The notes beneath the pieces are model-generated. The model ran no database searches. It was not told where the DNA came from and saw only the letters and a list, made by a program, of their open reading frames with translations. Made by a program: the position numbers and the translations under genes. Shown piece after piece: positions 24,921 through 45,099 of a DNA stretch of 45,099 nucleotides. The stretch is from the NCBI GenBank assembly GCA_019240655.1, contig JAFAXX010000055.1, positions 1 to 45,099 of the forward strand. Reading direction: 5' to 3'. Within the stretch, counting starts at the first letter, position 1, and the number at the start of each line of letters is the position of its first letter. The DNA comes from Solirubrobacterales bacterium (GTDB lineage Bacteria > Actinomycetota > Thermoleophilia > Solirubrobacterales > Solirubrobacteraceae).

Positions 24921-26378
24921 GTGCTGTTTCCGGCTCTAAGCGACCCGGTCGACAAGGTCGCGTTGCGATTTGGCAATCGGACACTCAAGTATCCGCAGCT
25001 CTGCGATGCCGCGACACGCGTCGCTGACCAGGTGGCTGGAGCGGATCGCGTGGGCGTATGGGCGGTTCCGGAGCCTGAGAGCTGTGTGGCCGTGATCGGC
25101 GCGCTACTCGCGGCGGTCCCCGTGGTCCCGATCAATCCGAAGGCCGGCGAACGCGAGCTTGGCCATATTGTCAGCGACAGCGACCCAGCCATGATCCTGT
25201 CCGCTGCGGGCGTCCAATTACCCGCGGCTCTCGGCGACCGACGGCTGCTCGAGGTCGACCTTGACGGCTCGGGCAGCAGGATCCCGCCCGAGGCGCCCGA
25301 GGAGGCCCCTGCGATTGTGATCTACACCTCCGGCACCACCGGGGCTCCCAAGGGAGCCGTCCTGCCTCGCCGCGCGATCGCCTCGAACCTCGACGCACTC
25401 GCGAAAGCCTGGGATTGGACGGACGAGGACGTGGTCGCCCACTCGCTTCCGCTCTTCCATGTCCACGGACTGATCCTCGGCGTGCTCGGCCCGATTCGGC
25501 GCGGGGGTGGCGTCCATCACCTCGGCCGTTTCTCCTCCGAGGCCGCTGGCGCAGCGCTGAGCGACGATGCGACGATGTTCTTTGCCGTTCCGACCATGTA
25601 TCACCGGCTCGCCGAGGACGCCGAGGGCTCGTCCGAACTGGCGGAACAGCTCGGTCGCGCCCGCCTCCTGGTCTCGGGTTCCGCCGCACTGCCCGCGGCC
25701 GAGCACAGCCGCATCGAGCGTCTGACCGGCCAGCGCATCGTCGAGCGCTACGGCATGACCGAGACGTTGATGAATACGGCGATTCGGGCGTCGGGGGACC
25801 GCCGGCCGGGCTACGTCGGCCCGTCGCTGGACGGCGTCGAGATCCGGCTCCTCGACGACGATGGCAACGTCGTCGAGGTCGACGATGACGAGACCGTAGG
25901 GGAGATCGTCGTCCGGGGGCCGAACCTGTTTCTCGAATACCTCAACCGGCCTGACGCGACTGCCGAGGCGCTCCGCGACGGATGGTTCTACACCGGAGAC
26001 CTCGCCACCCGGACTCCCGACGGCTATATCCGCATCGTCGGGCGGCGCGCCACCGACCTCATCAAGAGCGGCGGGTTCAAGATTGGTGCCGGCGAGATAG
26101 AGGGCGCCCTCCTCGAGCATCCAGGCGTACAGGAGGCTGCGGTCACGGGCGAACCGGACTCCGACATGGGCGAGCGGATCGTCGCCTGGGTCGTACGCCG
26201 TCCCGGCGCCTCCCCGTCGGAGGGCGAACTGGTCAACCACGTCGCCTCGATGCTGACACCCCACAAGCGCCCCCGCGTGGTCCATTTCCTGGACGAGCTG
26301 CCGCGCAACGAGATGGGCAAGGTCCAGAAGAAGCGGCTGGCGGCTCGATCCACCGCGGAAGCGGCTGAGCGCACCTGA
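24921..26378 (+). CDS. matB: Malonyl-CoA synthetase (malonate--CoA ligase)
   Basis: 485 residues, adenylate-forming enzyme: malonate (often also methylmalonate) + CoA + ATP gives the acyl-CoA + AMP + PPi. Motifs: phosphate loop YTSGTTGAPKGAVLP near residue 135; LPLFHVHGLILGVLG near 175; FFAVPTMYHRLAEDAEG near 220; ERYGMTETLMNTAIR near 275; TGDLATRTPDGYIRIVGR near 355; ATDLIKSGGFKIGAGEIEGA near 377; catalytic Lys467 in PRNEMGKVQKK. The YGMTETLMNT and KSGG-KIGAGEIE strings are those of actinobacterial MatB such as the Streptomyces coelicolor enzyme, not of acetyl- or fatty-acyl-CoA synthetases. GTG start after AGGAGG. First gene of operon A, so malonate or methylmalonate is probably an end product of the pathway next door. 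Confidence 0.88.
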   Translation: MLFPALSDPVDKVALRFGNRTLKYPQLCDAATRVADQVAGADRVGVWAVPEPESCVAVIGALLAAVPVVPINPKAGERELGHIVSDSDPAMILSAAGVQLPAALGDRRLLEVDLDGSGSRIPPEAPEEAPAIVIYTSGTTGAPKGAVLPRRAIASNLDALAKAWDWTDEDVVAHSLPLFHVHGLILGVLGPIRRGGGVHHLGRFSSEAAGAALSDDATMFFAVPTMYHRLAEDAEGSSELAEQLGRARLLVSGSAALPAAEHSRIERLTGQRIVERYGMTETLMNTAIRASGDRRPGYVGPSLDGVEIRLLDDDGNVVEVDDDETVGEIVVRGPNLFLEYLNRPDATAEALRDGWFYTGDLATRTPDGYIRIVGRRATDLIKSGGFKIGAGEIEGALLEHPGVQEAAVTGEPDSDMGERIVAWVVRRPGASPSEGELVNHVASMLTPHKRPRVVHFLDELPRNEMGKVQKKRLAARSTAEAAERT

Positions 26379-26390
26379 CACCGTCTCGCC

Positions 26391-27923
26391 GTGTCCGCGA
26401 CCGCCAGGCCCGCCAGCGCCCGCGATCGCATCGCCATGGTCGCCGACGCTGGGAGCCTCGAGGTCTGGGACGATGACGTCGTCTCGCACGACCCTTTGCG
26501 CTTCAGCGATAACCTGCCATACCCTGAGAGGCTGGCTGCCGCCGAAGCGCGCACCGGACTCAGGGAGTCGGTGCTGACCGGAGGTGTGACGATCGCCGGG
26601 CGCAGGGTCGTCGTGGTCGCCGGGGAGTTCGGCTTCTTCGGCGGAAGCATCGGCACCGCGACCGGGGAGCGGGTGGCGCTCGCAATCGACTGCGCCTGCG
26701 AGTCACGCGTGCCGGTTCTGATTCTGCCCGCGTCGGGCGGTACGCGGATGCAGGAAGGGACACCAGCGCTCATGCAGATGGCGAAGATCTCGGCAGCGGT
26801 CCGCCGCCTGCTCGACGCGGGGTTGACCTACATCGCCTACCTGACACACCCCACCACCGGAGGCGTTCTGGCATCGTGGGGCTCGCTTGGCGTGGTCACT
26901 TTCGCGATGCCCGGTGCCTTCATCGGATTCGGCGGGCCGCGCGTGGTCGAGATGATGACGGGCCGGCGGTTGCCCGATGGCATCCAGAGCGCTGAGCACC
27001 TCTTCGAACGAGGCCTCGTGGACGACGTCGTCGCGCCCGAGGACTTGCGCGAGCGAGTGCTTCGAGTCCTCGCCGTAACCGCTCCCGTGTCCGAGCCTCG
27101 AAGTCGCCGATCGTCGCCGGCCCGCGCCAGCGAGCTTCCTGCACCCGGTGACGCATGGGCGTCTGTTCGTCACGCCCGTAATCCGCTGCGTCCGGGCGCT
27201 GCCGAGCTGCTGCGCGCGTGGGCCACGGATGTCACCGTGCTCCGCGGCGACGGCGCCGGCGGCGGCGAGGACCCAGGATGCCTCGCCGCGCTCGCGCGCC
27301 TGCGGGGCATACCTGCCATGGTCGTCGCCCAGCACCGCGACCGCACAAGCCCTTCCAGAATGGGCCCGGCCGGCTATCGAAAGGCCCTCCGGGCGATGGC
27401 GGTGGCCGAGCAACTGAATCTCCCGCTGGTGACGATCGTTGACACTCCTGGCGCTCAGATGAGCGTGGCGGCCGAAGAAGGCGGCCTGTCGGCCGAGATC
27501 GCGCGATGCATGGCGAGGCTCAGCAGCCTTCGTGTGCCGACGCTGGCCGTGCTCGCCGGCGAGGGCGGCAGCGGCGGTGCGCTCGCGCTGCTGGTCGCCG
27601 ACCGCGTCATCTGTGCCGAGCACGCCTACCTCGCCGCTATCGCCCCGGAGGGGGCGTCGGCGATCGTGTACCGTTCAACCGATCGCGCCGCGGAGCTTGC
27701 GGCCGCCCAGGGCGGCGCGTCGTGGGAGCTGATGCGGTTCGGGATTGTCGACACCGTCGTCAGCGAGCAGCCCTCTGCCGACCTCGAGCCGGAAGCCTTC
27801 GCGGCGCGGCTGGGCGAGGCAGTCGAGGCCGAACTTGGACGCCTGCTCGAACAACCGCCCGACATCCGACTCACCCTGCGCACCCGGCGCTACCGGCACG
27901 TCGGCAATCCGGAAGGAGAGTGA
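26391..27923 (+). CDS. Fused AccD-AccA-type carboxyltransferase
   Basis: 510 residues with two crotonase-fold halves. Residues about 40-235 resemble AccD (beta): GFFGGSIGTATGERVALAID, LILPASGGTRMQEGTPALMQ, YLTHPTTGGVLASWGSLGV. Residues about 255-490 resemble AccA (alpha): GPAGYRKALRAMAVAEQLNL, VDTPGAQMSVAAEEGGLSAE, VLAGEGGSGGALALLVADRV, IAPEGASAIVYRS. The zinc ribbon of E. coli AccD is missing. The pair normally moves CO2 between biotin and acetyl-CoA or propionyl-CoA. No biotin carboxylase or biotin carrier gene is in this window. Placed 12 bp after matB it could decarboxylate malonyl-CoA in reverse, on a biotin carrier encoded elsewhere, or serve as a MdcD/MdcE-like decarboxylase; this is inference. 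GTG start at 26391. Confidence 0.82.
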   Translation: MSATARPASARDRIAMVADAGSLEVWDDDVVSHDPLRFSDNLPYPERLAAAEARTGLRESVLTGGVTIAGRRVVVVAGEFGFFGGSIGTATGERVALAIDCACESRVPVLILPASGGTRMQEGTPALMQMAKISAAVRRLLDAGLTYIAYLTHPTTGGVLASWGSLGVVTFAMPGAFIGFGGPRVVEMMTGRRLPDGIQSAEHLFERGLVDDVVAPEDLRERVLRVLAVTAPVSEPRSRRSSPARASELPAPGDAWASVRHARNPLRPGAAELLRAWATDVTVLRGDGAGGGEDPGCLAALARLRGIPAMVVAQHRDRTSPSRMGPAGYRKALRAMAVAEQLNLPLVTIVDTPGAQMSVAAEEGGLSAEIARCMARLSSLRVPTLAVLAGEGGSGGALALLVADRVICAEHAYLAAIAPEGASAIVYRSTDRAAELAAAQGGASWELMRFGIVDTVVSEQPSADLEPEAFAARLGEAVEAELGRLLEQPPDIRLTLRTRRYRHVGNPEGE

Positions 27924-27929
27924 CCTGTC

Positions 27930-28610
27930 ATGAACATCACCGGAGAGCACGCGTTTGTCTCGCCGCGTCCCAGGGTGTGGGAGGCGCTTCAGGATCCTCA
28001 GATGTTGGCCAATGCCCTGCCCGGCGTCAGACGGCTGGAGGTCAACGGGCCGGATGAGTACGCCATCACCGTCAACGTTGGCGTTGGATCGGTGAAGGGC
28101 ACATATGACGGCACCTTCAAGCTCACCGACAAGCGGGACGGCGAAAGTTGCAGCGTGCGCGCGAACGCCACAGGGGCGCCCGGTTCCGTTGATGCGGTCG
28201 CTCGCATGCAGATGCGCGACGGCGATGATGGAGGCGCCGTCCTGGCCTACGAGGCGGACGCGAGCGTCACCGGACCCCTAGCGGGGGTTGGCCAACGCTT
28301 GGTCGGCGCGGCGGCGCGCAAGACCACCAAGGAGTTCCTGGCTGCACTCGACCGCGAGCTCATGTCCGCAACGCAACCACATGACGCAGATCGGACCGGA
28401 GCGGAGCCTGAGCGCCCCGCTGGTGAGCCCGGCGCCGAGCCGGCCGCCGAAGCGCGTCCCCCGGCCGCCGGTGCGGTATTCGCTCCCCGGGGTCGACCGC
28501 CGTCGGAGCGAGGGGGAGTGGACCCCCTCGTGGTCGGGCTCAGCGCGCTCGGGGGGTTTCTCGCCGCGCTGGTGGGCGTCGCGTTCGGGCGCTGGACAGC
28601 TCGGCACTGA
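27930..28610 (+). CDS. CoxG-like SRPBCC protein with C-terminal membrane anchor
   Basis: 226 residues. Residues 1-140 are the CoxG-type SRPBCC fold: GEHAFVSPRPRVWEALQDPQ, MLANALPGVRRLEVNGPDEY, VGSVKGTYDGTFKLTD and TGPLAGVGQRLVGAAARK. Then comes a Pro/Ala/Glu-rich linker of about 50 residues and one membrane helix VVGLSALGGFLAALVGVAFG at the extreme C-terminus. In CO dehydrogenase systems CoxG links the molybdenum enzyme to the membrane and its quinone pool. Here it most likely serves the CoxMSL-like enzyme of operon B, 3 kb away, and ends operon A. It follows the carboxyltransferase by 6 bp. Its last 71 bases overlap the 3' end of the convergent PucR gene. Confidence 0.85.
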   Translation: MNITGEHAFVSPRPRVWEALQDPQMLANALPGVRRLEVNGPDEYAITVNVGVGSVKGTYDGTFKLTDKRDGESCSVRANATGAPGSVDAVARMQMRDGDDGGAVLAYEADASVTGPLAGVGQRLVGAAARKTTKEFLAALDRELMSATQPHDADRTGAEPERPAGEPGAEPAAEARPPAAGAVFAPRGRPPSERGGVDPLVVGLSALGGFLAALVGVAFGRWTARH

Positions 28611-30264
28611 CTGCCTCCGAGCGCAGGCCGGCTGCGACGTCAGGCCGATCCACCGCCACGATCCGCAGCGCCGCCAGCGCCAGCGCGAGCGACAGGCGGC
28701 CATCGGGCTCCTCGATCCTTCGGCCCAGCAGCCGCCGCAGACGCGCCAGACGGTGACGGATCGTGTTGTAGTGGAAATAGAGGTCCCCAGATGCGTCGAC
28801 CAGGCGCATGTTGTGTGACGCCAGGGCCGCCATCGTCGCAAGGAGGTCCTGCCGATCCGGAAGTGCCGGATCGCCGAGTGGCCCGAGCGCCTCTCGTGCC
28901 ATTGTGGCCAGGAACTCGACGTCACGGACCGCGGCCAACAGGCGTACCAGTCCAAGATCGTCGAAGTATGCGATCGATGCCTGCCCCGAGCGCAGCGGGC
29001 CGGAGGTCGTCAAGGCGAGCATTGCCTCGCGCAAGGCCTCGGGCAAATCGGTGATCTCGGTGCGCATGCTGCTCACGCCGACGCATAGCTGCCGCCTGAT
29101 CCCCGGCACCGCACACCGTGAGGCCAGCCGTCGTGTCACCGCCTCCGTGGCGGTGGTGCGATCCTCCTCACGGGCGATATGCACCACCAACCCTAGGCCC
29201 TGTCGCCGCGGGAACGGGCGTACGCGGAAGGTGCCCCCGACCAGCGCGCGAGCGAGGGCGTCGGCGCTGCGGTCGTCCAGAGAGAAGCGCGCGACGTCGA
29301 GTGGGCCCCCCTGCTCGCGCCCGCGTCGCGACACCAGCATCACCAGGTAGGGCGACCCGCGAGGCCAACGCAGACGCTCGGCGTGCTTCCGGGCCTCGTC
29401 CGGGCTGAGACTGTGATCCACGAGCTCCTCGAGGAGCTGGCGTTCAAATTTGCGGTACACGGCCTCGACCCGTTGGCGACCGACGAGCTGCATCCCGCAC
29501 ACCACGGCCGCCTGCGCCAGGGCCGCGTGTGCGTAGTTCTCATCCTCGATCACCCCGGTGGCGTAGAGCGCCCCGTAGCGTCGACCGACGGTGGAGATCG
29601 GAGCCAACAGGTAGCGTCGCCCGTCGACGTCCAGGGCGCTGCGGCGGGTGATTGCGCTGACCTCGTAGGAGAGAGCCGCCGGGCTCCATATCGCGCAGTC
29701 GCCGGTTCCCGTGACGAGCGCGCCGTACTCGTCGAACACCGCGACGTGAGCGCCGAGAGCGCGTGCAACGATCGCGGTGATCGCGGGCATCGGCTCGTTT
29801 CCCAATGCGGCGCCGGTCAGGGCATCGTGCAGTTCACCGATGCGATGCAGGCGCTCGGTCTGGCGCTCGGCGATCGCCCTCAGCAACGGATTCACGATCG
29901 CATCAAAGCGTCCGGGCGACAGCACCAATAACGGCAGCGAGTGGGCATCGCACGCGGCGAGGAGATCATCGGGTAGTCGCGCCCAAACCCTCCCGGGCTT
30001 GACCCCGAGCGCGCTCACGCGGCGCCCCGCGAGTCGCGCGACGAGCCATGCGAGGTCGAGGTTCCGGAGCGGATGGGCGCTCGACAACATCAGGCTATTT
30101 GGGGCCAGGGTCTCCAACTCGCTCAGGTCGAGCACACCTACGGAGTCGATCCGGTGTTTGAGCCCGGTTTGCCCGGCGGCGACACGCGCCTCGCCTAACG
30201 CGGTCTCGCGCAGCGCCCCGGCAACTGTCAGCGGGCCCCGGGCGCCGTAGCGGATGCGGCCCAT
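28540..30264 (-). CDS. PucR-family transcriptional regulator (first)
   Basis: 574 residues. The N-terminal PucR domain covers about 10-130 (VAAGQTGLKHRIDSVGVLDL, LMLSSAHPLRNLDLAWLVAR, LPLLVLSPGRFDAIVNPLLR), the ligand-sensing part in purine/pyrimidine regulators. A GAF-like middle part follows (AHVAVFDEYGALVTGTGDCA). The C-terminal PucR helix-turn-helix reads LYFHYNTIRHRLARLRRLLG near residue 520. The start is taken at ATG 30264; the longer frame upstream is antisense to the permease gene start. Divergent from the permease operon, with 148 bp between, so it most likely controls it. Its 3' end overlaps the CoxG-like gene on the other strand. Confidence 0.87.
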   Translation of the reverse strand: MGRIRYGARGPLTVAGALRETALGEARVAAGQTGLKHRIDSVGVLDLSELETLAPNSLMLSSAHPLRNLDLAWLVARLAGRRVSALGVKPGRVWARLPDDLLAACDAHSLPLLVLSPGRFDAIVNPLLRAIAERQTERLHRIGELHDALTGAALGNEPMPAITAIVARALGAHVAVFDEYGALVTGTGDCAIWSPAALSYEVSAITRRSALDVDGRRYLLAPISTVGRRYGALYATGVIEDENYAHAALAQAAVVCGMQLVGRQRVEAVYRKFERQLLEELVDHSLSPDEARKHAERLRWPRGSPYLVMLVSRRGREQGGPLDVARFSLDDRSADALARALVGGTFRVRPFPRRQGLGLVVHIAREEDRTTATEAVTRRLASRCAVPGIRRQLCVGVSSMRTEITDLPEALREAMLALTTSGPLRSGQASIAYFDDLGLVRLLAAVRDVEFLATMAREALGPLGDPALPDRQDLLATMAALASHNMRLVDASGDLYFHYNTIRHRLARLRRLLGRRIEEPDGRLSLALALAALRIVAVDRPDVAAGLRSEAVSAELSSARTRRPPARRETPRAR

Positions 30265-30412: not shown

Positions 30413-31768
30413 ATGGCGACTGTACTGGACCGGGTGTGGACGCTGCACGGGGACGGCCGCTCCGTCACCCCCGGCGAGGTAGTGCGTCCGGACGAGCGAC
30501 TGCGCTTCCCGAACATGTTGGGGCTCGGCGCCCAACACATCCTGGCGATGTTCGGGGCCACGGTGCTGGTCCCGGTACTGACCGGCTTCCCGGTCACGAC
30601 CACCTTGTTCTTCTCCGGGGTCGGCACGCTGGTCTTCAACATCGTGACCCGGAACCGGATACCGTCCTACACCGGCTCCAGCTTCGCGTTCATCGCCCCG
30701 GTCTTGGCCGCGAAGACACATGGCGGCGTGCCGGCGGCGCTGGGCGGAATCCTCTGCGCCGGGGTCGCCGTGTTCATCGTCGGTCTGATCGTCGATCGCG
30801 CCGGCTTTCGCGTGATCGAGTTCCTGCTGCCGCCGGTCGTCACGGGGGCGATCGTCGCCCTCATCGGCTTGAACCTCGCCCCGACCGCTGAGACCGAGTT
30901 CGTCAAGCAGGCGGGCATCGCCATGGTCACGCTCGTGGCGATTCTGCTCATCGGCGTGGCCCTCAGGGGCTTCGTATCTCGCCTCTCGGTGTTCCTCGGG
31001 GTGGTGGTCGGTTACGTATTCGCCGCGATCTTGGGAAAGGTCGACTGGAGCGGCGTGCGCAAGGCAGACTGGGTTGGCCTGCCGCACTTTCAGCACCCCG
31101 TCTTCAACGGCCGGGCGATCCTCCTGATCGTGCCCGCGGTCCTGCTCGTGCTGATAGCTGAGAACGCTGGGCACGTCAAGGCGGTGGCCGCCATGACCGA
31201 GCGCGACCTCGACCCGGTGATCGGGCGATCGTTCATGGGAGACGGTCTGGCCACGACCATTTCCGGAGTGTTCGGCGGCTCCGGCACGACCACGTATGCC
31301 GAGAACATCGGCGTGATGGGCTTCACGCGCGTCTACTCGACCCTGGCTTACGTCATCGCCGGGTGCGTCGCGATCGGGCTCGGTTTGCTACCGAAATTCG
31401 GCGCCGTGGTCGCGGCTCTCCCGATTGGCGTGCTCGGCGGCGCGGTCACCGTGCTGTATGGAATGATCGTGGTCCTTGGTGCCCGCATCTGGATCGAGGC
31501 GCGGGTGGATTTCCGGGATCCGGTCAACCTCGTCACCGCCGGGGTTGCCGTGATCGTCGGCGCTGGGAACTACACGCTTCACTGGGGTGATTACACGTTC
31601 GCGGGCATCGCGCTGGGCTCGCTGGCCGCGGTTGTCATCTTCCAGGTGCTGAATCGGTTGCAGCCGAAGGTCACGGTTGCACCCGAGGCCGAGGCCGGCG
31701 CCTTCGGCGATGCGCTCGTCGACCCGCTCGCCCACGAGCCCGACCCGCGGGCTCGTACGACGCCGTAG
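30413..31768 (+). CDS. NCS2-family permease, UraA-like (uracil/pyrimidine type)
   Basis: 451 residues, 14-helix nucleobase transporter fold. The pattern follows UraA/RutG rather than the xanthine (XanQ/PucJ) branch: LGLGAQHILAMFGATVLVPV near residue 37, GVGTLVFNIVTRNRIPSYTG near 69, SSFAFIAPVL near 89. The residues that bind uracil in E. coli UraA (Glu241, His245, Glu290) have clear counterparts: Glu250 and His254 in IAENAGHV, and Glu298 in TTYAENIGVMGFTRVYS. It should import a pyrimidine base with protons. The specificity among uracil, thymine and cytosine is not certain from sequence. First gene of operon B; strong AAAGGAG site. Confidence 0.87.
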   Translation: MATVLDRVWTLHGDGRSVTPGEVVRPDERLRFPNMLGLGAQHILAMFGATVLVPVLTGFPVTTTLFFSGVGTLVFNIVTRNRIPSYTGSSFAFIAPVLAAKTHGGVPAALGGILCAGVAVFIVGLIVDRAGFRVIEFLLPPVVTGAIVALIGLNLAPTAETEFVKQAGIAMVTLVAILLIGVALRGFVSRLSVFLGVVVGYVFAAILGKVDWSGVRKADWVGLPHFQHPVFNGRAILLIVPAVLLVLIAENAGHVKAVAAMTERDLDPVIGRSFMGDGLATTISGVFGGSGTTTYAENIGVMGFTRVYSTLAYVIAGCVAIGLGLLPKFGAVVAALPIGVLGGAVTVLYGMIVVLGARIWIEARVDFRDPVNLVTAGVAVIVGAGNYTLHWGDYTFAGIALGSLAAVVIFQVLNRLQPKVTVAPEAEAGAFGDALVDPLAHEPDPRARTTP

Positions 31769-36936: not shown

Positions 36937-38476
36937 GCGCGTCGAGCCGCGTGCCGTCCTCCATGAACGGACCGAGCAGCTCGGTCAAGCGGGCAACGCG
37001 GTAACGCACGGTGTTGTAGTGCCAGCCGCCGCGGCGGGCGGTCTCGGCGACGTTCAAGCCGGTCTCCACGAGGAGGCGGAGGGTGGCGGTAAGCATCCTT
37101 CCGTGATCAGGCTCCAACTCATCCAGCGGCGCCAGCGTGTCGCGCTCGAACGCCTGCAGCTTGTCGACTGGGACGTGGCTCAGCATCCGCAGCGGACTGA
37201 GGGGATCGAACTCGCAACAGCGCGAGCGCGGGCCGAAGCACTCGGCGCAGGCAACGGCCTCCAGTGCTTGCGCGTGCGCGAGCGGAAGCTGCGCGAGCTC
37301 GCAGTGGAGCCCGCTCAGTCCCAATCGCACATCGACGAGCTCGAGCTCGAGCTCGAGCTCGCGCATGAGCAGCACGGCGGCGTCGCCGGCACCGTTGGGT
37401 CCGTCCGGCACGGGGAGGAGCGTGAGGCAATCGCCGTCGCGAGCCATCACGAGAGCAGCCGGCGAGAGGCGCCGGATCGCGGCGCTCGCGGCTTCGGTTG
37501 CACCGTTCGCCGACCGCGCCAGCAGGACCCGAAATGGCGTCCCTGCCCGCCAACCGGCCGCATTGGCGCGCTCGCTCGCGGCGACTGGATCGAGGGTGCC
37601 CACCAGCAGGTCCCGGACGAACTGCTCGGTGAGCTGTCTCACCGTGGCGGCCTCCTCGAGTTCGTGCACTATCTCGAAGGCAACGCTGCGGGCGCCGCTT
37701 TGAACGGCAGCGAGCATGAGCGGCTGGCGGGGCTCGGGCAGGCGCGCGGCGACGCAGCCGAGGTGCATTCCACCCGCGAGGATCGGCCACAGGATCCACC
37801 CTTCGCCGGCGTCCGCGGGCGCGGTCCAACCCTCCGCGATCCAGGCGAAAGCGGCCTCCTGAGCCGCCTCGCGGTCGCCGTCATCGGACACGGCGAGGGC
37901 GATCCCGTCCGAGCCGATGATGGCGATGCTTCCGGCGGTCAGGTCTGCGATCGCTCTGACCAGCCGCGGCAGGCCGGCGTCGGAGATCACCAGGTCGATC
38001 AGCTCATCGCGGACCGCCCCGACCAGGCGAAGATGGCTTGCCTGCGAGGCCACGAGTGTCTCCAGAAGTTCGGTCAGCAGTGAATTCAGCCGCGAGCCCG
38101 CGGCGAGCTCGACGAGCGGAAGTGACCGGTCGTCGGCCCTGGCGAGGCCGGCCGCTCCGAGCTTTTCCAGCGTCGATCCCCGCGCCGCCAGCCCCGCGAC
38201 ACCTCGCTCGTCGAGAGCGTCGATCAGCGTAATCGGATCGTCGAGCTCGTCAAAAGCGCAGCTGGCCGCCAGGATGAGTTCGTCGCGCCGGACGAGTGCC
38301 ACGGTCGGCACCTGCATGACGTTGACCCGCGTGAGCGCACGCGACAGGCCGGAATCGCCGGCGAGAACATGCGCACCGCGTAGAGCCGGGAACGTGAGCA
38401 CATCGCTGATCCGCAGGCGACCCCCGAGCACCGGCCCCAGCGCCGTGTCCGAGAGCAATCGCAGGCGGTGGCCCAT
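36881..38476 (-). CDS. PucR-family transcriptional regulator (second)
   Basis: 531 residues. PucR sensory domain at about 20-130: LRISDVLTFPALRGAHVLAG, LTRVNVMQVPTVALVRRDEL, ILAASCAF. A middle region (about 180-420) follows, with the odd acidic run LLMRELELELELVDVRLG. The C-terminal HTH_30 domain reads NVAETARRGGWHYNTVRYRV followed by ARLTELLGPF near residue 490. It shares domain order but only loose sequence with the first PucR, so the two are not recent duplicates. Divergent from the carbamate kinase operon with about 108 bp between. A 9-bp inverted repeat reaches over its start codon, suggesting autoregulation. Confidence 0.88.
   Translation of the reverse strand: MGHRLRLLSDTALGPVLGGRLRISDVLTFPALRGAHVLAGDSGLSRALTRVNVMQVPTVALVRRDELILAASCAFDELDDPITLIDALDERGVAGLAARGSTLEKLGAAGLARADDRSLPLVELAAGSRLNSLLTELLETLVASQASHLRLVGAVRDELIDLVISDAGLPRLVRAIADLTAGSIAIIGSDGIALAVSDDGDREAAQEAAFAWIAEGWTAPADAGEGWILWPILAGGMHLGCVAARLPEPRQPLMLAAVQSGARSVAFEIVHELEEAATVRQLTEQFVRDLLVGTLDPVAASERANAAGWRAGTPFRVLLARSANGATEAASAAIRRLSPAALVMARDGDCLTLLPVPDGPNGAGDAAVLLMRELELELELVDVRLGLSGLHCELAQLPLAHAQALEAVACAECFGPRSRCCEFDPLSPLRMLSHVPVDKLQAFERDTLAPLDELEPDHGRMLTATLRLLVETGLNVAETARRGGWHYNTVRYRVARLTELLGPFMEDGTRLDALMLALLLRREVRADNGRR
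37337..37360 (-). repeat. (GAGCTC)4 microsatellite inside pucR-2
   Basis: Four perfect GAGCTC units form a 24-bp self-complementary tract encoding the Glu-Leu run of the second PucR. Its unit is six bases, so slippage by one unit would add or remove two residues without a frameshift. Confidence 0.7.
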
Positions 38477-38584: not shown

Positions 38585-39535
38585 ATGGAATCAGGCTGCG
38601 GTGAGCGGGTCGTCGTGGCGCTCGGCGGCAACGCGATCGCCGGCGAGAGCGGAAGCGATCCTATCTCTCAACAGCGCGCCGTCGAGCGCGCCGCCGAGCA
38701 GATCGCCGACCTGGTGCTGGCCGGCTATGAGATCGTCATCACCCACGGCAACGGCCCGCAGGTCGGCAACCTCCTGCTCAAGAACGACCTCGCGCGCGAC
38801 GTCGTGCCACCGGTCCCACTCGACTGGTGCGTGGCCCAGACCCAGGCCACGCTCGGTTTCCTGATCGTCACCGCGCTCGAGGCGTCGCTTCGCAGGACCG
38901 GCGCGGAGCGGCTCGTCAGTACCGTCATCACCCGCGTGCTCGTCGACTCCGCCGACCCCGCCTGGTCGCGCCCGACGAAGCCGATCGGGCGCTTCCTCCC
39001 GGGAGCTGAGGCGCGCGAGCGCATAGCCCAAGGAGAGGCGTGGGAGGACCGTGGCCCGCGCGGCTGGCGGCGCATGGTGCCCTCGCCAGATCCGATCGAG
39101 ATCCTCGATCGCGGCACGATCGAACGACTCCTGGCCACGGGGACGGTCGTGGTGGCCGCCGGCGGCGGAGGCATTCCGATGGTCCGTGAGGATGGTCGGT
39201 TACGAGGCGTCGAGGGCGTCCTCGACAAGGACCTGACCGGGGCTCTGCTGGCCCGCACTGTCGGTGCCGCTTGCTACGTGATCGCCACCGACGTCGAGGC
39301 AGCGGCCATCCGCTTCGGAACGCCCGACCAGGAGTGGCTGGGCACGGTCACTCCGCCCCGGTTGCGCGCGCTCGTTGATGAGGGTCACTTCGCGAGCGGC
39401 AGCATGGGTCCAAAGGTCGACGCGGTCCTGAGATTCGTGGAACAAGGCGGCGAGCGGGCGGTCATCACCACGCTCGATCGGCTACGCGAGGGTGTCGAGG
39501 GCACCGTCGGGACACGAGTCCAATTCGGGAGGTAA
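38585..39535 (+). CDS. arcC: Carbamate kinase
   Basis: 316 residues, about the normal length (near 310). Amino-acid-kinase fold motifs: VVVALGGNAIAG near residue 10, VITHGNGPQVGNLL near 52, VVVAAGGGGIPMV near 190, VLDKDLTGALLARTVGAACY near 214 and GSMGPKVDAVLRFVEQGG near 275. It converts carbamoyl phosphate + ADP into ATP + carbamate (then NH3 + CO2). First gene of operon C, 5 bp before fdrA. There is no arginine deiminase or catabolic ornithine carbamoyltransferase gene here, so the carbamoyl phosphate must come from the FdrA/YlbE/YlbF module, as in the E. coli oxamate route. TTG at 38576 is an alternative start. Confidence 0.94.
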   Translation: MESGCGERVVVALGGNAIAGESGSDPISQQRAVERAAEQIADLVLAGYEIVITHGNGPQVGNLLLKNDLARDVVPPVPLDWCVAQTQATLGFLIVTALEASLRRTGAERLVSTVITRVLVDSADPAWSRPTKPIGRFLPGAEARERIAQGEAWEDRGPRGWRRMVPSPDPIEILDRGTIERLLATGTVVVAAGGGGIPMVREDGRLRGVEGVLDKDLTGALLARTVGAACYVIATDVEAAAIRFGTPDQEWLGTVTPPRLRALVDEGHFASGSMGPKVDAVLRFVEQGGERAVITTLDRLREGVEGTVGTRVQFGR

Positions 39536-39540
39536 GGCAG

Positions 39541-41064
39541 ATGCACGACCGCGTAATCGTACGGAGAGGCGCCTACTATGACTCGGTCACCCTGATGCTG
39601 GTCTCGCGCAACGCGGGGGCACTCGAGGGCGCCGAGGCGGTTGCCGTCGGCATGGCCACACCGCTGAACCTTGAGCTGATTGAGAGCCAGGGCTTCGACC
39701 TGCACGGTGCTGGCGAGCTTGGCCCCAATGATCTTCTGCTCGCGGTGCGCGCGCGCGACGACGCAGCCGCCGACGGCGTCGTGGCCGCGATCGACGCCGA
39801 GCTGTCCGCCCGAAGCGCCGGGAGTGGCGGTGCGGTCGAGGAGCGACCACCCCGTTCGATCGTGTCCGCTGCCCGCCGGCACCCCGAGTTGAGCGTAGCG
39901 TTCCTCTCTGTCCCCGGACATCACGTGGCCTACGAGGCGGCCAGGGCGCTCGACGCCGGGCTTCATGTGTTCTGCTTTTCGGACGGCGTGAGCCTCGAGG
40001 ACGAGGCCGAGCTCAAGCGACGCGCGCTCGAGCTCGGGGTGCTGTTCATGGGCGCCGACTGTGGGACCGCGATCATCGACGGGGTCGCGCTGGGCTTCGC
40101 CAACGCGGTGCGGCGGGGACCGGTCGGCATCGTTGGCGCATCGGGGACCGGAATCCAGGAGGTGACATGCCTGCTCGATGCGGCCGGAGTCGGCATCTCC
40201 CACGCGATCGGCGTGGGCGGGCGGGATCTCAGCGCGCAGGTCGGCGGCGCGATGACGCGGCGCGGCCTCGAGCTGCTGGGGGCCGACGCCGGGACGGAGG
40301 CCATTGTCGCCATCTCGAAGCCACCGGATCCGGAGGTGGCGGACGAGATCGCCGTAGTTGCCGCGCGCGCCGGCAAACCGGTCGTGCTTGCGTTTCTCGG
40401 CTTCGGCGATCCGCCGGCGACCCCCCCGGGCGTCGAATATGCCACGACCCTCGAGGCAGCCGCCGCCCGCGGTGCCGAATTGCTGGGGCACTCGCTGCCG
40501 GACTTCGAAGCCCGTCTACCGCGACCACCCACACGGGGCTGCGTGCGCGGACTGTACAGCGGCGGGACGTTGTGCAAGGAGGCGATGAGCATCGTCTCTG
40601 GCGGCGTCGGCCGCATCGCGTCGAATATTCCCTTGCAGCCGGACTGGCTGCTAGCTGATATCCGACAAACCACCGGCCACGCGTTCATCGACTTCGGAGA
40701 GGATGAGTTGACCGAGGGGCGGCCGCATCCGATGATCGACAACACCCTGCGCATCGAGCATCTCCTCCAGGACGCCGCCGACACACAGGTCACGGTGATC
40801 CTCCTCGACGTGGTCCTTGGCTATGGAGCCCATCCCGATCCGGCTGCTGACCTCGGCCCTGCGGTGTCCGAAGCGGTGGCGGCGCGCGAGAACCTTAACG
40901 TGATCGTCGCCCTGTGCGGGACCGACGGCGACCCTCAGGGCCTCGAGCGCCAGCGCGCCGCCCTGCTCGAGGCGGGCGCCGCCGTCACTCGAAGCAACGC
41001 CCACGCGGCCCGGATGGCCTTGCAGGCGGCTGCGGTGAAGGAGGCGTCCGGTGTCAGAAGCTGA
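39541..41064 (+). CDS. fdrA: FdrA-family protein (oxamic-transcarbamylase-type subunit)
   Basis: 507 residues with two succinyl-CoA-synthetase-like halves. The first carries LFMGADCGTAIIDGVALGFA near residue 168 and the phosphate-binding-type Rossmann loop GPVGIVGASGTGIQEVTCLL near 193, then GVGGRDLSAQVGG. The second half has RGLYSGGTLCKEAM near 338, FIDFGEDELTEGRPHPMID near 380 and VILLDVVLGYGAHPDP near 420. In E. coli FdrA (AllF) with YlbE (AllG) and YlbF (AllH) was shown to make up oxamic transcarbamylase, which interconverts oxalurate + phosphate and carbamoyl phosphate + oxamate. No allantoin gene is present here, so another ureido acid is probable. GGGAGGTAAGG site; the next gene overlaps by 14 bp. 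Confidence 0.9.
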   Translation: MHDRVIVRRGAYYDSVTLMLVSRNAGALEGAEAVAVGMATPLNLELIESQGFDLHGAGELGPNDLLLAVRARDDAAADGVVAAIDAELSARSAGSGGAVEERPPRSIVSAARRHPELSVAFLSVPGHHVAYEAARALDAGLHVFCFSDGVSLEDEAELKRRALELGVLFMGADCGTAIIDGVALGFANAVRRGPVGIVGASGTGIQEVTCLLDAAGVGISHAIGVGGRDLSAQVGGAMTRRGLELLGADAGTEAIVAISKPPDPEVADEIAVVAARAGKPVVLAFLGFGDPPATPPGVEYATTLEAAAARGAELLGHSLPDFEARLPRPPTRGCVRGLYSGGTLCKEAMSIVSGGVGRIASNIPLQPDWLLADIRQTTGHAFIDFGEDELTEGRPHPMIDNTLRIEHLLQDAADTQVTVILLDVVLGYGAHPDPAADLGPAVSEAVAARENLNVIVALCGTDGDPQGLERQRAALLEAGAAVTRSNAHAARMALQAAAVKEASGVRS

Positions 41065-42463
41065 CTCACAACTCCTGCTGGCCCGGCCGATCGACGTCGC
41101 CAACATCGGCGTCGATCTGTTCGCTGACGAGCTCGAGCATCAGCGGGTGCACGTGTCTCGCGTCGATTGGCGTCCGCCGGCCGAAGACACCGAGGACGCC
41201 CTCGGCCGGCTGGCGCTGCAGGCGGCCGACATCGCCCGCGCTAATGACCTCGCGCTGGAGCGGATCGAGGACGCCAAGCCTCTGCTGGTCGGTGTCGGCG
41301 TCGCCGGACAGCTGCTGCCGGGGATGAGCGAACGCACCCTGCTGCATGCCGGGCCCCCGATCACCTGGCCGGACATGTCGGGGCCGCTGCGCGGCGCGAT
41401 CATCGGCGCCGCGCTCTATGAGGGGCTGGCAACGGATCCCGATGACGCGGAGCGCCAGGCCCGCGCCGGCGCGTTCGAGTTCAGCCCGTGCCACGAGCGC
41501 GGAGCCGTGGGTCCGATGGCCGGCGTCGTCAGCGCGTCGATGCCGATGTGCATCGTGGAAAACGAAACCCACGGCAACCGTGCGTACTGCACCTTCAACG
41601 AGGGCTTGGGCAAGGTGCTGCGGTACGGCGCCAACGACGCGGAGGTGCTCGACCGCCTCGCTTGGATCCGCGACGTGCTGGCGCGGGTGTTCGCGCGCGC
41701 CTTGGAACGGCTGGGGTCGCCGATCGATCTGCGGTCGATGACGGCCCAGGCGCTGCAGATGGGCGATGAGGGCCACAACCGCAACCGAGCGGGCACTTCC
41801 CTCCTCCTGCGCGAGCTGCTGCCCGTCCTGCTCGAGCTGGACGAGCCTTCCAGCGATGTCGTCGCCGCCGCCCGATTCATCGCCGGCAACGACCACTTCT
41901 ACCTGAACCTGACGATGCCGGCCGCCAAGGCGTCGGCCGACGCCGCCGCCGGTGTCGAGCGCTCGTCAATTGTCGTCGCGATGGCGCGTAACGGCACGGA
42001 GTTCGGCATACGGCTGAGCGGCACGGGCGGACGCTGGTTCACCGGGCCCAGCGGGATGATCGATGGCCTCTACCTTCCCGGTTACGGGCCGGAGGACGCC
42101 AACCGGGATATCGGCGACAGCACGATCACCGAGACGGTGGGGCTCGGCGGCTTTGCGATGGCCGCCTCGCCCGCGATTGTGCGCTTCGTCGGCGGTCGCG
42201 CCGAGGATGCCCTCGAAGCCACGCGCGCGATGTATGACATCAGCTGGGGGGAGAGCCGCAGCTATCAGATTCCGGCACTCGGGTTCCGCGGAACGCCGGT
42301 GGGGATCGACTGTCGCGAGGTGGTGCATACCGGCCTGCTGCCGTTCGTCAACACCGGGATCGCGCATCGGGAGCCCGGCGTCGGACAGATCGGCGCGGGG
42401 TTGGTCGAGCCGCCGATGGAGGCCTTCGTCAAAGGGGTGCGCGCGCTCGCGGAGTGTGTCTGA
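41051..42463 (+). CDS. ylbE: YlbE-like DUF1116 protein (transcarbamylase-type subunit)
   Basis: 470 residues of the DUF1116 family. Conserved-looking blocks: ARPIDVANIGVDLFADELEH at residues 10-30, EFSPCHERGAVGPMAGVVSA near 147, MPMCIVENETHGNRAYCTFN near 168, NEGLGKVLRYGAND near 186, QMGDEGHNRNRAGTSLLLRE near 235 and NGTEFGIRLSGTGGRWFTGP near 315. The Glu/His/Arg-rich EGHNRN stretch is a good candidate for the active site. GTG start inside the end of fdrA. It is the second subunit of the presumed three-protein complex. Confidence 0.9.
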   Translation: MSEADSQLLLARPIDVANIGVDLFADELEHQRVHVSRVDWRPPAEDTEDALGRLALQAADIARANDLALERIEDAKPLLVGVGVAGQLLPGMSERTLLHAGPPITWPDMSGPLRGAIIGAALYEGLATDPDDAERQARAGAFEFSPCHERGAVGPMAGVVSASMPMCIVENETHGNRAYCTFNEGLGKVLRYGANDAEVLDRLAWIRDVLARVFARALERLGSPIDLRSMTAQALQMGDEGHNRNRAGTSLLLRELLPVLLELDEPSSDVVAAARFIAGNDHFYLNLTMPAAKASADAAAGVERSSIVVAMARNGTEFGIRLSGTGGRWFTGPSGMIDGLYLPGYGPEDANRDIGDSTITETVGLGGFAMAASPAIVRFVGGRAEDALEATRAMYDISWGESRSYQIPALGFRGTPVGIDCREVVHTGLLPFVNTGIAHREPGVGQIGAGLVEPPMEAFVKGVRALAECV

Positions 42464-42494
42464 TCCCGGCCGGGGTCACGGCTCAGAGGGAGAC

Positions 42495-43376
42495 ATGCTC
42501 GCTTTCCTCGTGGCTACGCCGGTCCTCGAACGGGTCACCGCCACGCCAGGACACGGGATCGTGCGCGGTGTCGTCCGTAGCGCCGCCTATGTCGAGGTAG
42601 AGACTTTCATCATCGCCGTGACCGCCCGAGGCGTCCCGTTCATGCCGAATGGTGTCGCCCTGACCGAACGGCCGAGCCTAGGCGGCTGGCCGGCGAGTGG
42701 CACTCCCGTCCGTTTACAACGAGGCGGCATCGAGGCCGGGGAGCGTTCGATCATCTGGCCGGCCGATCGCCCTCCGGCGTGGGATCCGACGCTCCGCCCG
42801 GCGTCGGACGCCGGCGTCGATGCGCTCCATCGGCGGGCGATCGAGATTCTGCAGGCCCGGGGCATCGACGCGCGTGGAGACCCCGCCACGCTACCGCGGG
42901 CGCTGGAGCTCAGCGGCCTCGAGACCGCCGCGCGCGGGCCGGGAGCGAATGCCATCGCGCTGCTGCTGGAGTCCGTCGCCGCGCGCGACGGCGAGTTGGC
43001 CGCGCGTGCAGCAGAGCTGCTGCTAGGCCGCGGCTCAGGACTGACGCCGGAGGGCGACGATTTCCTGGCGGGAGCGGCTGTGGTCGTCGCAGCCTTTGCC
43101 GAAGCGGCGGGGTGGGAGGCGACCGACCGCACCCGATGGCTTGCGGCAGTGCACCCGCCGGTCCTGCGCCGGCTGACTACTCCCCTGTCGGCGACGCTGC
43201 TGGAGCTCGCGATCGCCGGCCAGATCATCGAGCCCGTCCACGGCCTTCTCGACCTGACGGATGTAGGGGGGCGCCGCTGGCCCACGGCGCTGCGACGCTT
43301 GGAAGGCATCGGACACTCAACCGGATCGGCTTACGCAGCCGCGATCGGCTCTGCAGCGCTGTTCCTCACGGGGTGA
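42495..43376 (+). CDS. ylbF: YlbF-like DUF2877 protein (transcarbamylase-type subunit)
   Basis: 293 residues of DUF2877. The family signature LGRGSGLTPEGDDFLAGAAV lies near residue 175 (Gly-rich loop with TPxGDD). The N-terminal half is beta-rich with VYVEVETFIIAVTARGVPFM-type strands and the C-terminus has the small-residue helix GSAYAAAIGSAAL. In E. coli the homologue AllH is the third component of oxamic transcarbamylase. ATG 42495 after GAGGGAG, 31 bp after ylbE; the longer open frame upstream is the shadow of ylbE. The 104 bp following it contain TAGCCT (43443-43448), a possible internal promoter for the next two genes. Confidence 0.87.
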   Translation: MLAFLVATPVLERVTATPGHGIVRGVVRSAAYVEVETFIIAVTARGVPFMPNGVALTERPSLGGWPASGTPVRLQRGGIEAGERSIIWPADRPPAWDPTLRPASDAGVDALHRRAIEILQARGIDARGDPATLPRALELSGLETAARGPGANAIALLLESVAARDGELAARAAELLLGRGSGLTPEGDDFLAGAAVVVAAFAEAAGWEATDRTRWLAAVHPPVLRRLTTPLSATLLELAIAGQIIEPVHGLLDLTDVGGRRWPTALRRLEGIGHSTGSAYAAAIGSAALFLTG

Positions 43377-43480
43377 GCGGGGCGGCGGGTTGCGCCGATC
43401 GCGCGGCGCCGGACTGTCGAAGACCGCCATATCGACCGCGGGTAGCCTGCCAGCATCAGCGACGACCAAGGGAGCAGCGG

Positions 43481-44278
43481 ATGATGCCGATCAATTCGAT
43501 GAACGTGCTCGACCTGTCCCAGGACTTCTCGATGCATACCCCGGCCTTCGCGAGCTACGAAGGCCCATCAATCAAGTGGGTGAAGCGCCTCGCGTTCGAG
43601 AAGGCAGGCGGGCAGATGCTGACCACGTCGCTGCACGTCGGCACCCACCTGGACGCGCCCGCGCACTTCTTCTCGGGCGGGAAATTCATCGGTGACCTGC
43701 CGCTCGAGTGGCTGATTGGCCCGGCATGCGTCGTCGACCTCGAGAGAATGGGGATTGGCGACTACGAGCTCTTCGGGCCCGACCAGTTCGAGCAATGGGA
43801 GCGAGACACCGGAATCACGATCGAGCGTGGCGACATCCTCGTAATCCACACCGGCTATCACAAGTACTACCCCGAGAACTGGGCCGATCGCACTGAGGTG
43901 GATGAAACGACGTATTTCATCCGACACCCCGGGCCGACGCGCGAATTCGCGGTGTGGCTGCTGGACCGCGGCGTTCGCTGGCTTGCCGTCGACGTGGGCA
44001 GCGCCGATCATCCGATGAACACCGTGATCCGAAGGCTGCGTCCGGACGAGGCTGAGGACGCCGAGGCGAAGCTCGGACGTACTCTCGACGAGATCTTCCC
44101 GAAGCAGGACTATCAGATCATGCACACGCTCCTCTTCCCGCACGACATAATCCACATTGAGAATCTCGGCGGAGCGATCGACGAGGTGCTCGACCAGCGC
44201 ATCACCTTCGGGTGCTTCCCGTGGCGCTTCCAGGGCGGCGAGGCGGCGATGTGCCGAGCGGTCGCCTTCCGCCAATAA
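43481..44278 (+). CDS. Cyclase-family metal-dependent hydrolase
   Basis: 265 residues of the Cyclase family (PF04199), which includes kynurenine formamidase and isatin hydrolase, Zn2+/Mn2+ enzymes that split N-formyl or cyclic amide bonds. The hallmark LHVGTHLDAPAHFF lies near residue 51 (His-x-Gly-Thr-His-x-Asp metal site). Further: GDILVIHTGYHKYYPENWAD near 118, and RWLAVDVGSADHPMN near 165. Since isatin hydrolase opens a cyclic imide-like ring, I propose that this enzyme opens barbiturate to ureidomalonate, in the place of the unrelated barbiturase. Hydrolysis of another amide is possible. AAGGGAG ribosome-binding site; 7 bp before the amidase gene. Confidence 0.87.
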   Translation: MMPINSMNVLDLSQDFSMHTPAFASYEGPSIKWVKRLAFEKAGGQMLTTSLHVGTHLDAPAHFFSGGKFIGDLPLEWLIGPACVVDLERMGIGDYELFGPDQFEQWERDTGITIERGDILVIHTGYHKYYPENWADRTEVDETTYFIRHPGPTREFAVWLLDRGVRWLAVDVGSADHPMNTVIRRLRPDEAEDAEAKLGRTLDEIFPKQDYQIMHTLLFPHDIIHIENLGGAIDEVLDQRITFGCFPWRFQGGEAAMCRAVAFRQ

Positions 44279-44285
44279 CTGGGTC

Positions 44286-45099
44286 ATGGCTTCGACGCAC
44301 TCGACGATGGCGACAGCCGCTTTGGAAATTTGCTCCCTGACCGCGACGGAAATGGCGAGTGGTCTCCGGGCGCGGCACGTATCCGCAGTCGAGTTGCTGG
44401 AGGCCCATCTCGCGATGATCGACCTGATCAATCCCCGCGTGAACGCCATCGTGACTTTGGCCGCCGAGCAGGCCGCGGTGCACGCGCGGCTGGCCGACGC
44501 GAGATTGAGCCGTGGCCAGAGCGGCGGTCCACTCGACGGCCTGCCCGTTGCCCACAAGGACTACACCCCGACCGCCGGGCTGCGAACAACCTTCGGATCA
44601 CCGATCTTCGCTGATTTCGTTCCCGATCAGGACGCGCTTGTGGTCGAGCGTCTCAAAGGCGCCGGCGCCATCACGGTCGGCAAGACGAACACGCCTGAAT
44701 TTGCCGCTGGCTCGCAGACCTATAACGAGGTCTTCGGCGCGACACGCAATCCCTACGATCCCGCCAAGACGTCCGGCGGGAGCAGCGGTGGGGCGGCGGC
44801 AGCGCTGGCTTGCCGCATGGTTCCACTTGCCGATGGCACCGATATGGGCGGCTCGCTGCGCAACCCGGCGAGCTTTTGCAATGTCGTCGGCCTCAGGCCG
44901 TCACCGGGCAGAGTTCCCTCATGGCCGGCATCCTCGGCCTGGTCTCCGTTTTCTGTTGACGGCCCGATGGCCCGCACGGTCGAGGACGTCGCCCTGATGC
45001 TGAGCGTGATCGCTGGAGAGGATGATCGCTCGCCGATCTCGATCACCGAACCCGCAACGCGCTTCGCCGGTCCGTTGCAACGTCGGTTCGCTGGCGTTC
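44286..45099 (+). CDS. Amidase-signature enzyme (partial, cut by the window edge)
   Basis: The first 271 residues of an amidase (AS family). The Ser-cisSer-Lys triad is complete: Lys in LPVAHKDYTPTAGL near residue 92, cis-Ser in TSGGSSGGAAAAL near 165, and nucleophile Ser in DGTDMGGSLRNPASF near 188. PVGK-like and NPYD elements follow the usual order (VGKTNTPEFAAGS, NPYDPAKTSGG). No stop is reached at 45099. These enzymes release ammonia or amines from amides (malonamidase, biuret/allophanate hydrolase, AtzE/F types). With its neighbours, hydrolysis of malonamate to malonate + NH3 is an attractive guess. It begins 7 bp after the cyclase gene, so the two are cotranscribed; the operon goes on past the window. 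Confidence 0.88.
   Translation, partial: MASTHSTMATAALEICSLTATEMASGLRARHVSAVELLEAHLAMIDLINPRVNAIVTLAAEQAAVHARLADARLSRGQSGGPLDGLPVAHKDYTPTAGLRTTFGSPIFADFVPDQDALVVERLKGAGAITVGKTNTPEFAAGSQTYNEVFGATRNPYDPAKTSGGSSGGAAAALACRMVPLADGTDMGGSLRNPASFCNVVGLRPSPGRVPSWPASSAWSPFSVDGPMARTVEDVALMLSVIAGEDDRSPISITEPATRFAGPLQRRFAGV

Follow-up and report, generated by a model that had tools for sequence, protein, structure and literature searches.

The right half of a 45,099-base stretch of DNA from a Solirubrobacterales bacterium was analysed as a candidate locus for pyrimidine degradation. The stretch, here called the window, is the entire contig C147 (JAFAXX010000055.1) of a 4.06 Mb assembly in 191 contigs that is 91.5% complete (GCA_019240655.1). 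The gene cluster lies at positions 24,921-45,099 and its last gene, an amidase, is cut by the contig end. An earlier note, made from the letters alone, had listed most of these genes in three operons with two PucR regulators and had read them as an oxidative pyrimidine pathway ending in malonyl- or methylmalonyl-coenzyme A (CoA). All of the listed genes were recovered as open frames with Pfam or NCBIfam matches, in that arrangement. The cluster contains:

24921..26378, + strand, MatB-type malonyl-CoA ligase (PRK07787, PRK07514, PDB 3nyq comparison)
26391..27923, + strand, fused AccD/AccA-type carboxyltransferase (PF03255, PF01039)
27930..28610, + strand, CoxG-like protein (PF06240, 88 bits)
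28540..30264, - strand, PucR regulator 1, with an uncertain 5' end, transcribed divergently to the permease operon (PF07905, PF17853, PF13556; 28540-30231 scanned)
30413..31768, + strand, UraA-type NCS2 permease (PDB uracil permease, 253 bits)
31781..32647, + strand, CoxM, flavin adenine dinucleotide subunit of a molybdenum hydroxylase (PF00941, PF03450)
32647..33150, + strand, CoxS, [2Fe-2S] subunit (PF01799, PF00111)
33159..35534, + strand, CoxL, molybdenum subunit, candidate uracil/thymine hydroxylase (MoCoBD_1, MoCoBD_2; scanned from 33150)
35614..36936, + strand, CodA-like deaminase, predicted cytosine/5-methylcytosine deaminase (PDB 4r7w, 257 bits)
36881..38476, - strand, PucR regulator 2 (PF07905, PF17853, PF13556)
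38585..39535, + strand, carbamate kinase (arcC 349 bits, cut-off 358; PRK12352 312 bits, cut-off 266; scanned from 38576)
39541..41064, + strand, AllF (FdrA), transcarbamylase subunit (PRK06091, 452 bits, above cut-off)
41051..42463, + strand, AllG subunit (PF06545, 311 bits)
42495..43376, + strand, AllH subunit (PF11392, 60 bits)
43481..44278, + strand, cyclase-family hydrolase, proposed non-homologous barbiturase (PF04199, 128 bits; HxGTHxDxxxH)
44331..45099, + strand, amidase, N-terminal part only, proposed malonamate amidase (PF01425, 266 bits)

The three same-strand operons are MatB-AccDA-CoxG, UraA-CoxM-CoxS-CoxL-CodA and carbamate kinase-AllF-AllG-AllH-cyclase-amidase. A reverse-strand PucR gene precedes each of the last two. 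The earlier list did not contain two members of the MatB operon, the fused carboxyltransferase and CoxG. CoxG lies directly 3' of CoxL in several of the barbiturase-carrying loci described below, which ties the MatB operon of the window to its CoxMSL operon. Several curated models were matched below their cut-offs: RutG (402 bits, cut-off 759), uracil permease (336, 477), PRK07572 cytosine deaminase (358, 438) and PRK07514 malonyl-CoA synthase (349, 558). The gene families of the cluster were found together repeatedly across many genomes and the cluster is therefore not a chance assembly.

The locus probably encodes an oxidative pyrimidine-degradation pathway of a phosphorolytic variant. Every reaction is inferred from genes, families, context, presence or absence and a swap pattern among related loci, above all the action of the cyclase on barbiturate and of AllFGH on ureidomalonate. 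The UraA-type permease would import the base and the CodA-like enzyme would deaminate cytosine or 5-methylcytosine. CoxMSL would hydroxylate uracil (thymine) to (5-methyl)barbiturate, and the cyclase-family hydrolase would open the ring to ureidomalonate, an acyl-urea and the next homologue of oxalurate. AllFGH would convert the acyl-urea and phosphate to carbamoyl phosphate and malonamate, after which carbamate kinase would form adenosine triphosphate (ATP), NH3 and CO2 from the former and the amidase would convert the latter to malonate. MatB would complete the route to (methyl)malonyl-CoA. The earlier pyrimidine reading was supported for the pathway as such, but the ring opener is not a homologue of barbiturase and an amidase step had to be added after AllFGH.

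The HxGTHxDxxxH motif of the cyclase (H52, G54, T55, H56, D58, H62) is invariant in 57 aligned cyclase sequences, window included. An AlphaFold2 model from 28 sequences gave a predicted local distance difference test score (pLDDT) of 84.8. With this model, the best Foldseek match was a Ruegeria cyclase-family structure (8f9x, E 6e-15); isatin hydrolase (5nmp) matched at E 1e-14 with a query template modelling (TM) score of 0.70. Isatin hydrolase opens a cyclic amide, chemistry that would be close to barbiturate ring opening. PF09663, the AtzD/barbiturase family, had no match in the window's genome, with the genome of locus L061 as positive control; at 91.5% completeness a gene could have been missed.

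Related loci were gathered by aligning AllG with four relatives and scanning genome contigs with the resulting profile. Among the best 80 of at least 566 relatives, 58 loci had a cyclase match, 52 had CoxL and 44 had cyclase, CoxL and AllF together. The comparative set held 144 loci gathered via AllG or PF09663, plus the window; the presence of AllG is thus by design, and the exclusion of cyclase by barbiturase is not a product of locus selection. Locus stretches extended ∼10 kb per side and many contigs were shorter, so that counts of neighbouring genes are lower bounds. AllF, AllG and CoxL occurred together in 70 loci, 69 of them distinct (L035 and L131 are one contig with the same sequence, and L131 was dropped from the distinct count). 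A cyclase was present in 46 of the 70 (45 distinct), a barbiturase in 8, both in none and neither in 16. For 7 of these 16 a barbiturase was found elsewhere in the genome or replicon (L116, L117, L120, L121 and L122; ∼41 kb away for L007 and ∼18 kb for L008), and the genome of another, L010, holds a cyclase in pieces. No cyclase match above 60 bits was found in 22 barbiturase genomes (21 plus that of L061, with G506 apart); G504, G507 and G091 matched at 80-84% identity. Of 29 further locus genomes, selected among the best 80, only G506 had a PF09663 match and 28 had none.

Barbiturase-type genes are linked to AllFGH. In the 396 genomes of the Actinomycetota sample, the phylum of the window, PF09663 was found in 26, AllG in 49 and both in 21 (Fisher p = 4e-17, relatedness not corrected for). 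In all 21 genomes with both, the PF09663 gene is of the barbiturase type, scoring 482 bits or more to L061 and no more than 325 to TrzD; AllG is missing from each of the 5 genomes with another AtzD type. Barbiturase and AllG lie within 10 kb of each other in 13 of the 21, on the same contig within 45 kb in 3 more and on different contigs in 5. The composite order is PucR, then barbiturase-(CodA)-permease-carbamate kinase-AllH-AllF-AllG-CoxM-CoxS-CoxL-CoxG-(amidase), individual loci being without some of these genes. A dihydropyrimidinase gene, read by eye, lies near the barbiturase of L093, again a pyrimidine setting.

In L061, from an Acidimicrobiia assembly, the order is AtzD-AllH-AllF-AllG-CoxMSL-fam13-thiolase-DUF35, with the AtzD-family gene at the place of the cyclase. 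Its product matched 5hwe, named 'Barbiturase' in the PDB, with 515 bits, whereas no cyanuric acid hydrolase gave more than 320. The column counted as Arg188 of the Azorhizobium cyanuric acid hydrolase holds Asn in both L061 and 5hwe and Arg in four aligned cyanuric acid hydrolases. Excerpts of one report give Gln at this position in barbiturases (PMC4051656), so that the L061 residue fits a barbiturase only loosely. The fam13-thiolase-DUF35 trio (L061 15275-17548) is common to 2 barbiturase and 7 cyclase loci; fam13 had no match in Pfam or NCBIfam.

Quick trees were made of CoxL and of AllG, the latter without its 4 longest branches. In the CoxL tree the barbiturase loci L061 and L096 fall inside a set that includes 24 cyclase loci; the main barbiturase set adjoins the window's set with a support of 94. 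The swap of cyclase and barbiturase occurs on two hydroxylase backgrounds. L061 and L096 are hybrids: their AllG is of the barbiturase type, and their CoxL and downstream genes are those of cyclase loci. The hydroxylase of these hybrids should supply the barbiturase with its substrate and so probably supplies barbiturate in the cyclase loci as well. From this context and the swap pattern, the preferred role for the cyclase is that of a second barbiturase, not homologous to the first.

AllF, AllG and AllH are encoded together with carbamate kinase in the window operon. Identity to E. coli is 41% for AllF, 48% for AllG, 41% for carbamate kinase (AllK) and 28% over 102 residues for AllH. E. coli AllFGH is described, in excerpts of its report, as an oxamate transcarbamylase that converts oxalurate to oxamate and carbamoyl phosphate (PMC11326118). 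Ureidomalonate is an acyl-urea like oxalurate, and the expected products of AllFGH are therefore malonamate and carbamoyl phosphate; with malonamate as product, the amidase is needed before malonate is reached.

The E. coli activity also suggests purine or allantoin catabolism, with AllFGH as an ordinary oxamate transcarbamylase on oxalurate and the cyclase opening parabanate or hydantoin. The PucR regulators were counted in favour of this explanation. The CoA-transferase of L019 is best matched by CoA:oxalate CoA-transferase, below cut-off, and excerpts of a study of nitrifiers read their allFGHK genes as oxalurate degradation (PMC12625717). Against it, the annotated genes of the right half of the window include no allantoin-pathway genes, uricase or allantoinase. 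The window's genome has a uricase and an allantoinase (578 bits) on contig C44, in a separate cluster with its own NCS2 permease that, read by eye from the translations, runs to glyoxylate and glycerate; tblastn with the window proteins found no AllFGH on C44. Among 31 genomes, uricase was found in 3 and allantoinase above cut-off in 3, the window's genome being included in both; in 30 of 31 the allantoinase model, which also covers related amidohydrolases, was matched more weakly. A barbiturase has no place in a purine route, the window MatB is of the malonyl-CoA ligase type, and E. coli AllG groups in the AllG tree with 18 loci of neither type, whereas the window lies in a separate 10-row set and the barbiturase AllG in a 29-row set. 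A purine locus was rejected on the placement of uricase and allantoinase on C44 and their rarity among the 31 genomes, and a role of AllFGH on oxalurate and of the cyclase on parabanate or a hydantoin is judged quite unlikely. The earlier reading of the locus as oxidative pyrimidine degradation is instead supported by barbiturase-type genes in closely matching clusters and by the separate contig of uricase and allantoinase. The note had said that these two genes would refute its reading if they lay just outside the window in the same operon; both were located on C44, and the contig ends inside the amidase, with the sequence beyond it unseen.

In favour of the pyrimidine pathway, the permease and deaminase are of types that suit pyrimidines, and the MatB type suits malonate. 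The permease scored 49 bits against the uric acid-xanthine permease, compared with 253 against the uracil permease. Its motifs IAENAGH and TTYAENI align with IAEHVGH and TTYGENI of UraA, with the Glu and His of the first and the Glu of the second kept; we take these residues to be the functional ones of UraA. The nearest PDB matches of CoxL were quinoline 2-oxidoreductase (446 bits) and 6-hydroxypseudooxynicotine dehydrogenase (445), followed by carbon monoxide (CO) dehydrogenase (413) and xanthine dehydrogenase (177). CoxL carries the motif PYRGAGR, presumably the form II type, and is without what we likewise take to be the active-site motif of form I CO dehydrogenase. At 1172 bits, above cut-off, the NCBIfam label is group 5 of aerobic CO dehydrogenase. 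That name was rejected because the motif, the PDB ranking with two N-heterocycle hydroxylases on top and the context disagree with it. We know of no reference sequence with tested uracil or thymine dehydrogenase activity.

The deaminase is nearest to 4r7w, which we take to be the Klebsiella 5-methylcytosine deaminase; other cytosine deaminases scored 242-249 bits. Right after the metal Asp the window enzyme has Cys (QDC), 4r7w has Ser and a second aligned chain, presumably an engineered E. coli form, has Ala. In a comparison of twelve rows, with the motif not located in three, this residue is Asp in the homologues of four barbiturase loci (L097, L098, L101, L116), Ser in L042 and Cys in L009. 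According to excerpts of one report, CodA has Asp at this position and acquires 5-methylcytosine activity when it is mutated to Ala, and the 5-methylcytosine deaminase of Klebsiella has Ser (PMC6186785). The window enzyme is predicted to be a cytosine/5-methylcytosine deaminase, and its 5-methylcytosine-type residue makes thymine, hence methylmalonyl-CoA, a likely branch of the pathway.

A number of observations weigh against the pyrimidine pathway. For 8 of the 16 loci with neither gene there is no traced ring opener. G506, the genome of L011, has both a barbiturase-type gene (L145) and a cyclase split over two frames. Ring-opener labels change only 3 times on the CoxL tree, or 2 without the long-branch row L145, and the AllG tree parts barbiturase from cyclase with one change, so that the specificity of AllG could differ between the types. 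Permeases of barbiturase loci are 25-31% identical to that of the window and carry IESFGD or a similar motif without IAEN..H. The NCBIfam cyanuric-acid-hydrolase model is above cut-off on L061 (462 vs 360), although the PDB comparison was weighed higher. Neighbours in the 70 loci include carbamate kinase in 11, CodA in 5 and MatB in 5 (window included). Neither CoxL nor permease was found in the 21 kb examined of L009, whose AllG (78%) and cyclase (83%) are the closest to those of the window. CaiB-type CoA-transferases of some cyclase loci are best matched by glutarate or oxalate enzymes, none above cut-off. As a separate observation, the two Dormiibacter genomes (G505:C33 and G506:C34) have the cyclase in pieces or split over two frames, and in G506 the barbiturase-type gene stands beside a 34% CoxL match.

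The single change on the AllG tree and the different permeases would suit cyclase-type clusters that degrade a related cyclic ureide, such as hydantoins or creatinine-derived rings, with pyrimidines left to the barbiturase-type clusters. HyuA/HyuB, a hydantoinase/oxoprolinase-family pair, might be counted for this since it accompanies the cyclase locus L035, but it is also found beside the barbiturase in L102 and, with the HyuA part alone, in L095, and is hence no marker of a different substrate. For the same reason HyuA/HyuB was rejected as a replacement ring opener. The hydroxylase and downstream genes of L061 and L096, both barbiturase loci, recur in cyclase loci, and the window permease aligns with the uracil permease, Glu and His motifs included. 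Different substrates for the two types are considered unlikely, and pyrimidines are preferred for both.

Hydroxylase and ring opener are linked more firmly to the core of the pathway than are the ATP step and the malonate end. The earlier note had asked whether the permease and MatB recur with the set, and the outcome was mixed; a permease was found in 32 of the 70 loci, MatB only in the 5 given above. The 70 also include PucR in 23, some amidase, CN-hydrolase or asparaginase in 25 and MatB, CoA-transferase or thiolase in 24. With MatB near so few relatives, the malonate end rests mainly on the malonyl-CoA-ligase-type MatB of the window and on L106. MatB matched PRK07787 (acyl-CoA synthetase) at 681 bits, above cut-off, and in the PDB scored 619 against malonyl-CoA ligase 3nyq, 251 against malonyl-CoA synthetase and 191 against oxalate-CoA ligase. 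The AccD/AccA fusion may, as a guess, be the half-reaction of malonyl-CoA decarboxylation. In L009 the cyclase is followed by a CoA-transferase gene and then an AccDA-like gene (38% similar to that of the window), as if malonate were activated and then decarboxylated. Of the predicted gain of one ATP per ring, the yield of carbamate kinase stands; MatB, which takes ATP to adenosine monophosphate, costs more, and a net gain is obtained only with cheaper activation, for example by a CoA-transferase.

The truncated amidase has no clear continuation elsewhere in the genome, where separate amidase genes and a short C-terminal match on C137 were found. An asparaginase-like gene of L009 (3368-4372, between PucR and CodA) has a 53% relative near the barbiturase of L095 (8500-9500); these are possible alternative malonamate amidases. 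The amidase could also be a ureidomalonase in a hydrolytic route of the Rhodococcus type, with AllFGH and carbamate kinase serving another ureide. L106 (5700-13571), L114 and L115, one family, have a non-barbiturase AtzD-family gene, an amidase and MatB without AllG, and are possibly a hydrolytic form of the same pathway. In L106 the AtzD gene, amidase and a 59% MatB are adjacent, CoxMSL adjoins and CoxL falls in the window's set. The L106 AtzD gene is, however, of a third type, nearest to PDB 5hy0 (compared for L106 only). AllFGH shares its operon with cyclase and amidase in the window, and AllG accompanies the barbiturase type in 21 of 21 genomes. A ureidomalonase role for the window amidase is regarded as quite unlikely, and phosphorolysis by AllFGH followed by malonamate cleavage is retained.

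Further AllFGH genes were seen in other settings. On Aminobacter and Klebsiella plasmids (L005 10427-24158, L006 12427-24846), AllF, AllG, TrzD, carbamate kinase, a CodA-family amidohydrolase, a BMP-type ABC transporter and DUF2877 (AllH) occur together. The plasmid ring opener is the cyanuric acid hydrolase TrzD, so that AllFGH probably acts on biuret or carboxybiuret in these plasmids and the clusters are a possible phosphorolytic biuret route. The position of AllFG and carbamate kinase beside TrzD suggests a general acyl-urea role for AllFGH. In comammox assemblies, according to excerpts of one study, allFGHK adjoins triuret genes and is read as oxalurate degradation (PMC12625717). On pAPEC-O2-ColV, an E. 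coli ColV-type plasmid (L004 10435-16017), a cytosine permease lies close to carbamate kinase, AllG and AllF (matched in two frames), a further hint of a link between AllFGH and pyrimidines. Contig C188 of the window's own genome (L003 5814-10536) has a second AllG-AllH pair beside MSMEG_0567/0568-type nitrogen-starvation genes (AIR-synthase-like, GNAT, radical SAM); AllF was not found in this contig. AllG occurs with all three nitrogen-starvation genes again in L137, L141, L142 and L146, 4 of 19 further loci. Just 5' of the cluster, window positions 20996-24618 encode a Kup-type potassium transporter and an LPG-synthase-type membrane protein, which look unrelated.

The distinct cyclase loci with AllF, AllG and CoxL include members of 18 named phyla, mostly as metagenome bins; many of these lineages are anaerobic. 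With confidence only a little better than even, we propose that the phosphorolytic route, with the cyclase as second barbiturase and AllFGH as acyl-urea phosphorylase, occurs in no fewer than 18 named phyla, many anaerobic, and is not a rare actinobacterial oddity, and that in the window it leads from 5-methylcytosine and thymine to methylmalonyl-CoA and from cytosine and uracil to malonyl-CoA. If so, the locus provides candidate genes for uracil/thymine hydroxylation, a step for which, to our knowledge, no sequence is known. A second, unrelated barbiturase would be added, and AllFGH would be widened from oxalurate to a general acyl-urea phosphorylase acting on ureidomalonate and perhaps biuret. 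A nucleobase route would lie in many bacteria behind names such as CO dehydrogenase, cyclase and FdrA. Barbiturase itself is called a rare enzyme of a limited number of bacteria in excerpts of one report (PMC4051656). Among the titles and abstract openings listed from the open-licence PMC literature, none connects the catabolism of barbiturate or uracil with AllFGH or an enzyme of PF04199, and prior publication is not excluded by this.

The proposed pathway was compared with four known systems. The plasmid trzD-AllFG-carbamate kinase clusters of Aminobacter and Klebsiella resemble the window in a ring-opening amidohydrolase beside AllF, AllG and carbamate kinase and in the presence, at a greater distance, of AllH and a CodA-family gene; they differ in that their ring opener is TrzD. 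Isatin hydrolase and kynurenine formamidase (PF04199) share the fold and the HxGTHxDxxxH motif of the window cyclase, which differs in its ∼20% identity (structure alignments), its conserved AllFGH-CoxMSL context and its proposed substrate, barbiturate. In the AllFGH-AllK allantoin branch of E. coli, as in the window, a single operon encodes the three subunits and carbamate kinase; unlike E. coli K-12, the window cluster is without allantoin genes, its AllG lies elsewhere in the tree and its proposed substrate is one carbon longer.

The oxidative pathway of Rhodococcus erythropolis consists of uracil-thymine dehydrogenase, barbiturase and ureidomalonase. The window would share its intermediates uracil, barbiturate, ureidomalonate and malonate, similar clusters with a barbiturase-type enzyme exist, and the malonate-activating enzyme MatB that suits such a pathway is in the locus. 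In contrast to Rhodococcus, no barbiturase homologue was detected in the window's genome and ring opening is assigned to the cyclase-family hydrolase, the hydroxylase is a CoxMSL enzyme, and phosphorolysis with an amidase is proposed in place of hydrolysis to urea. We infer that the mechanism is a new variant of the known oxidative pyrimidine pathway.

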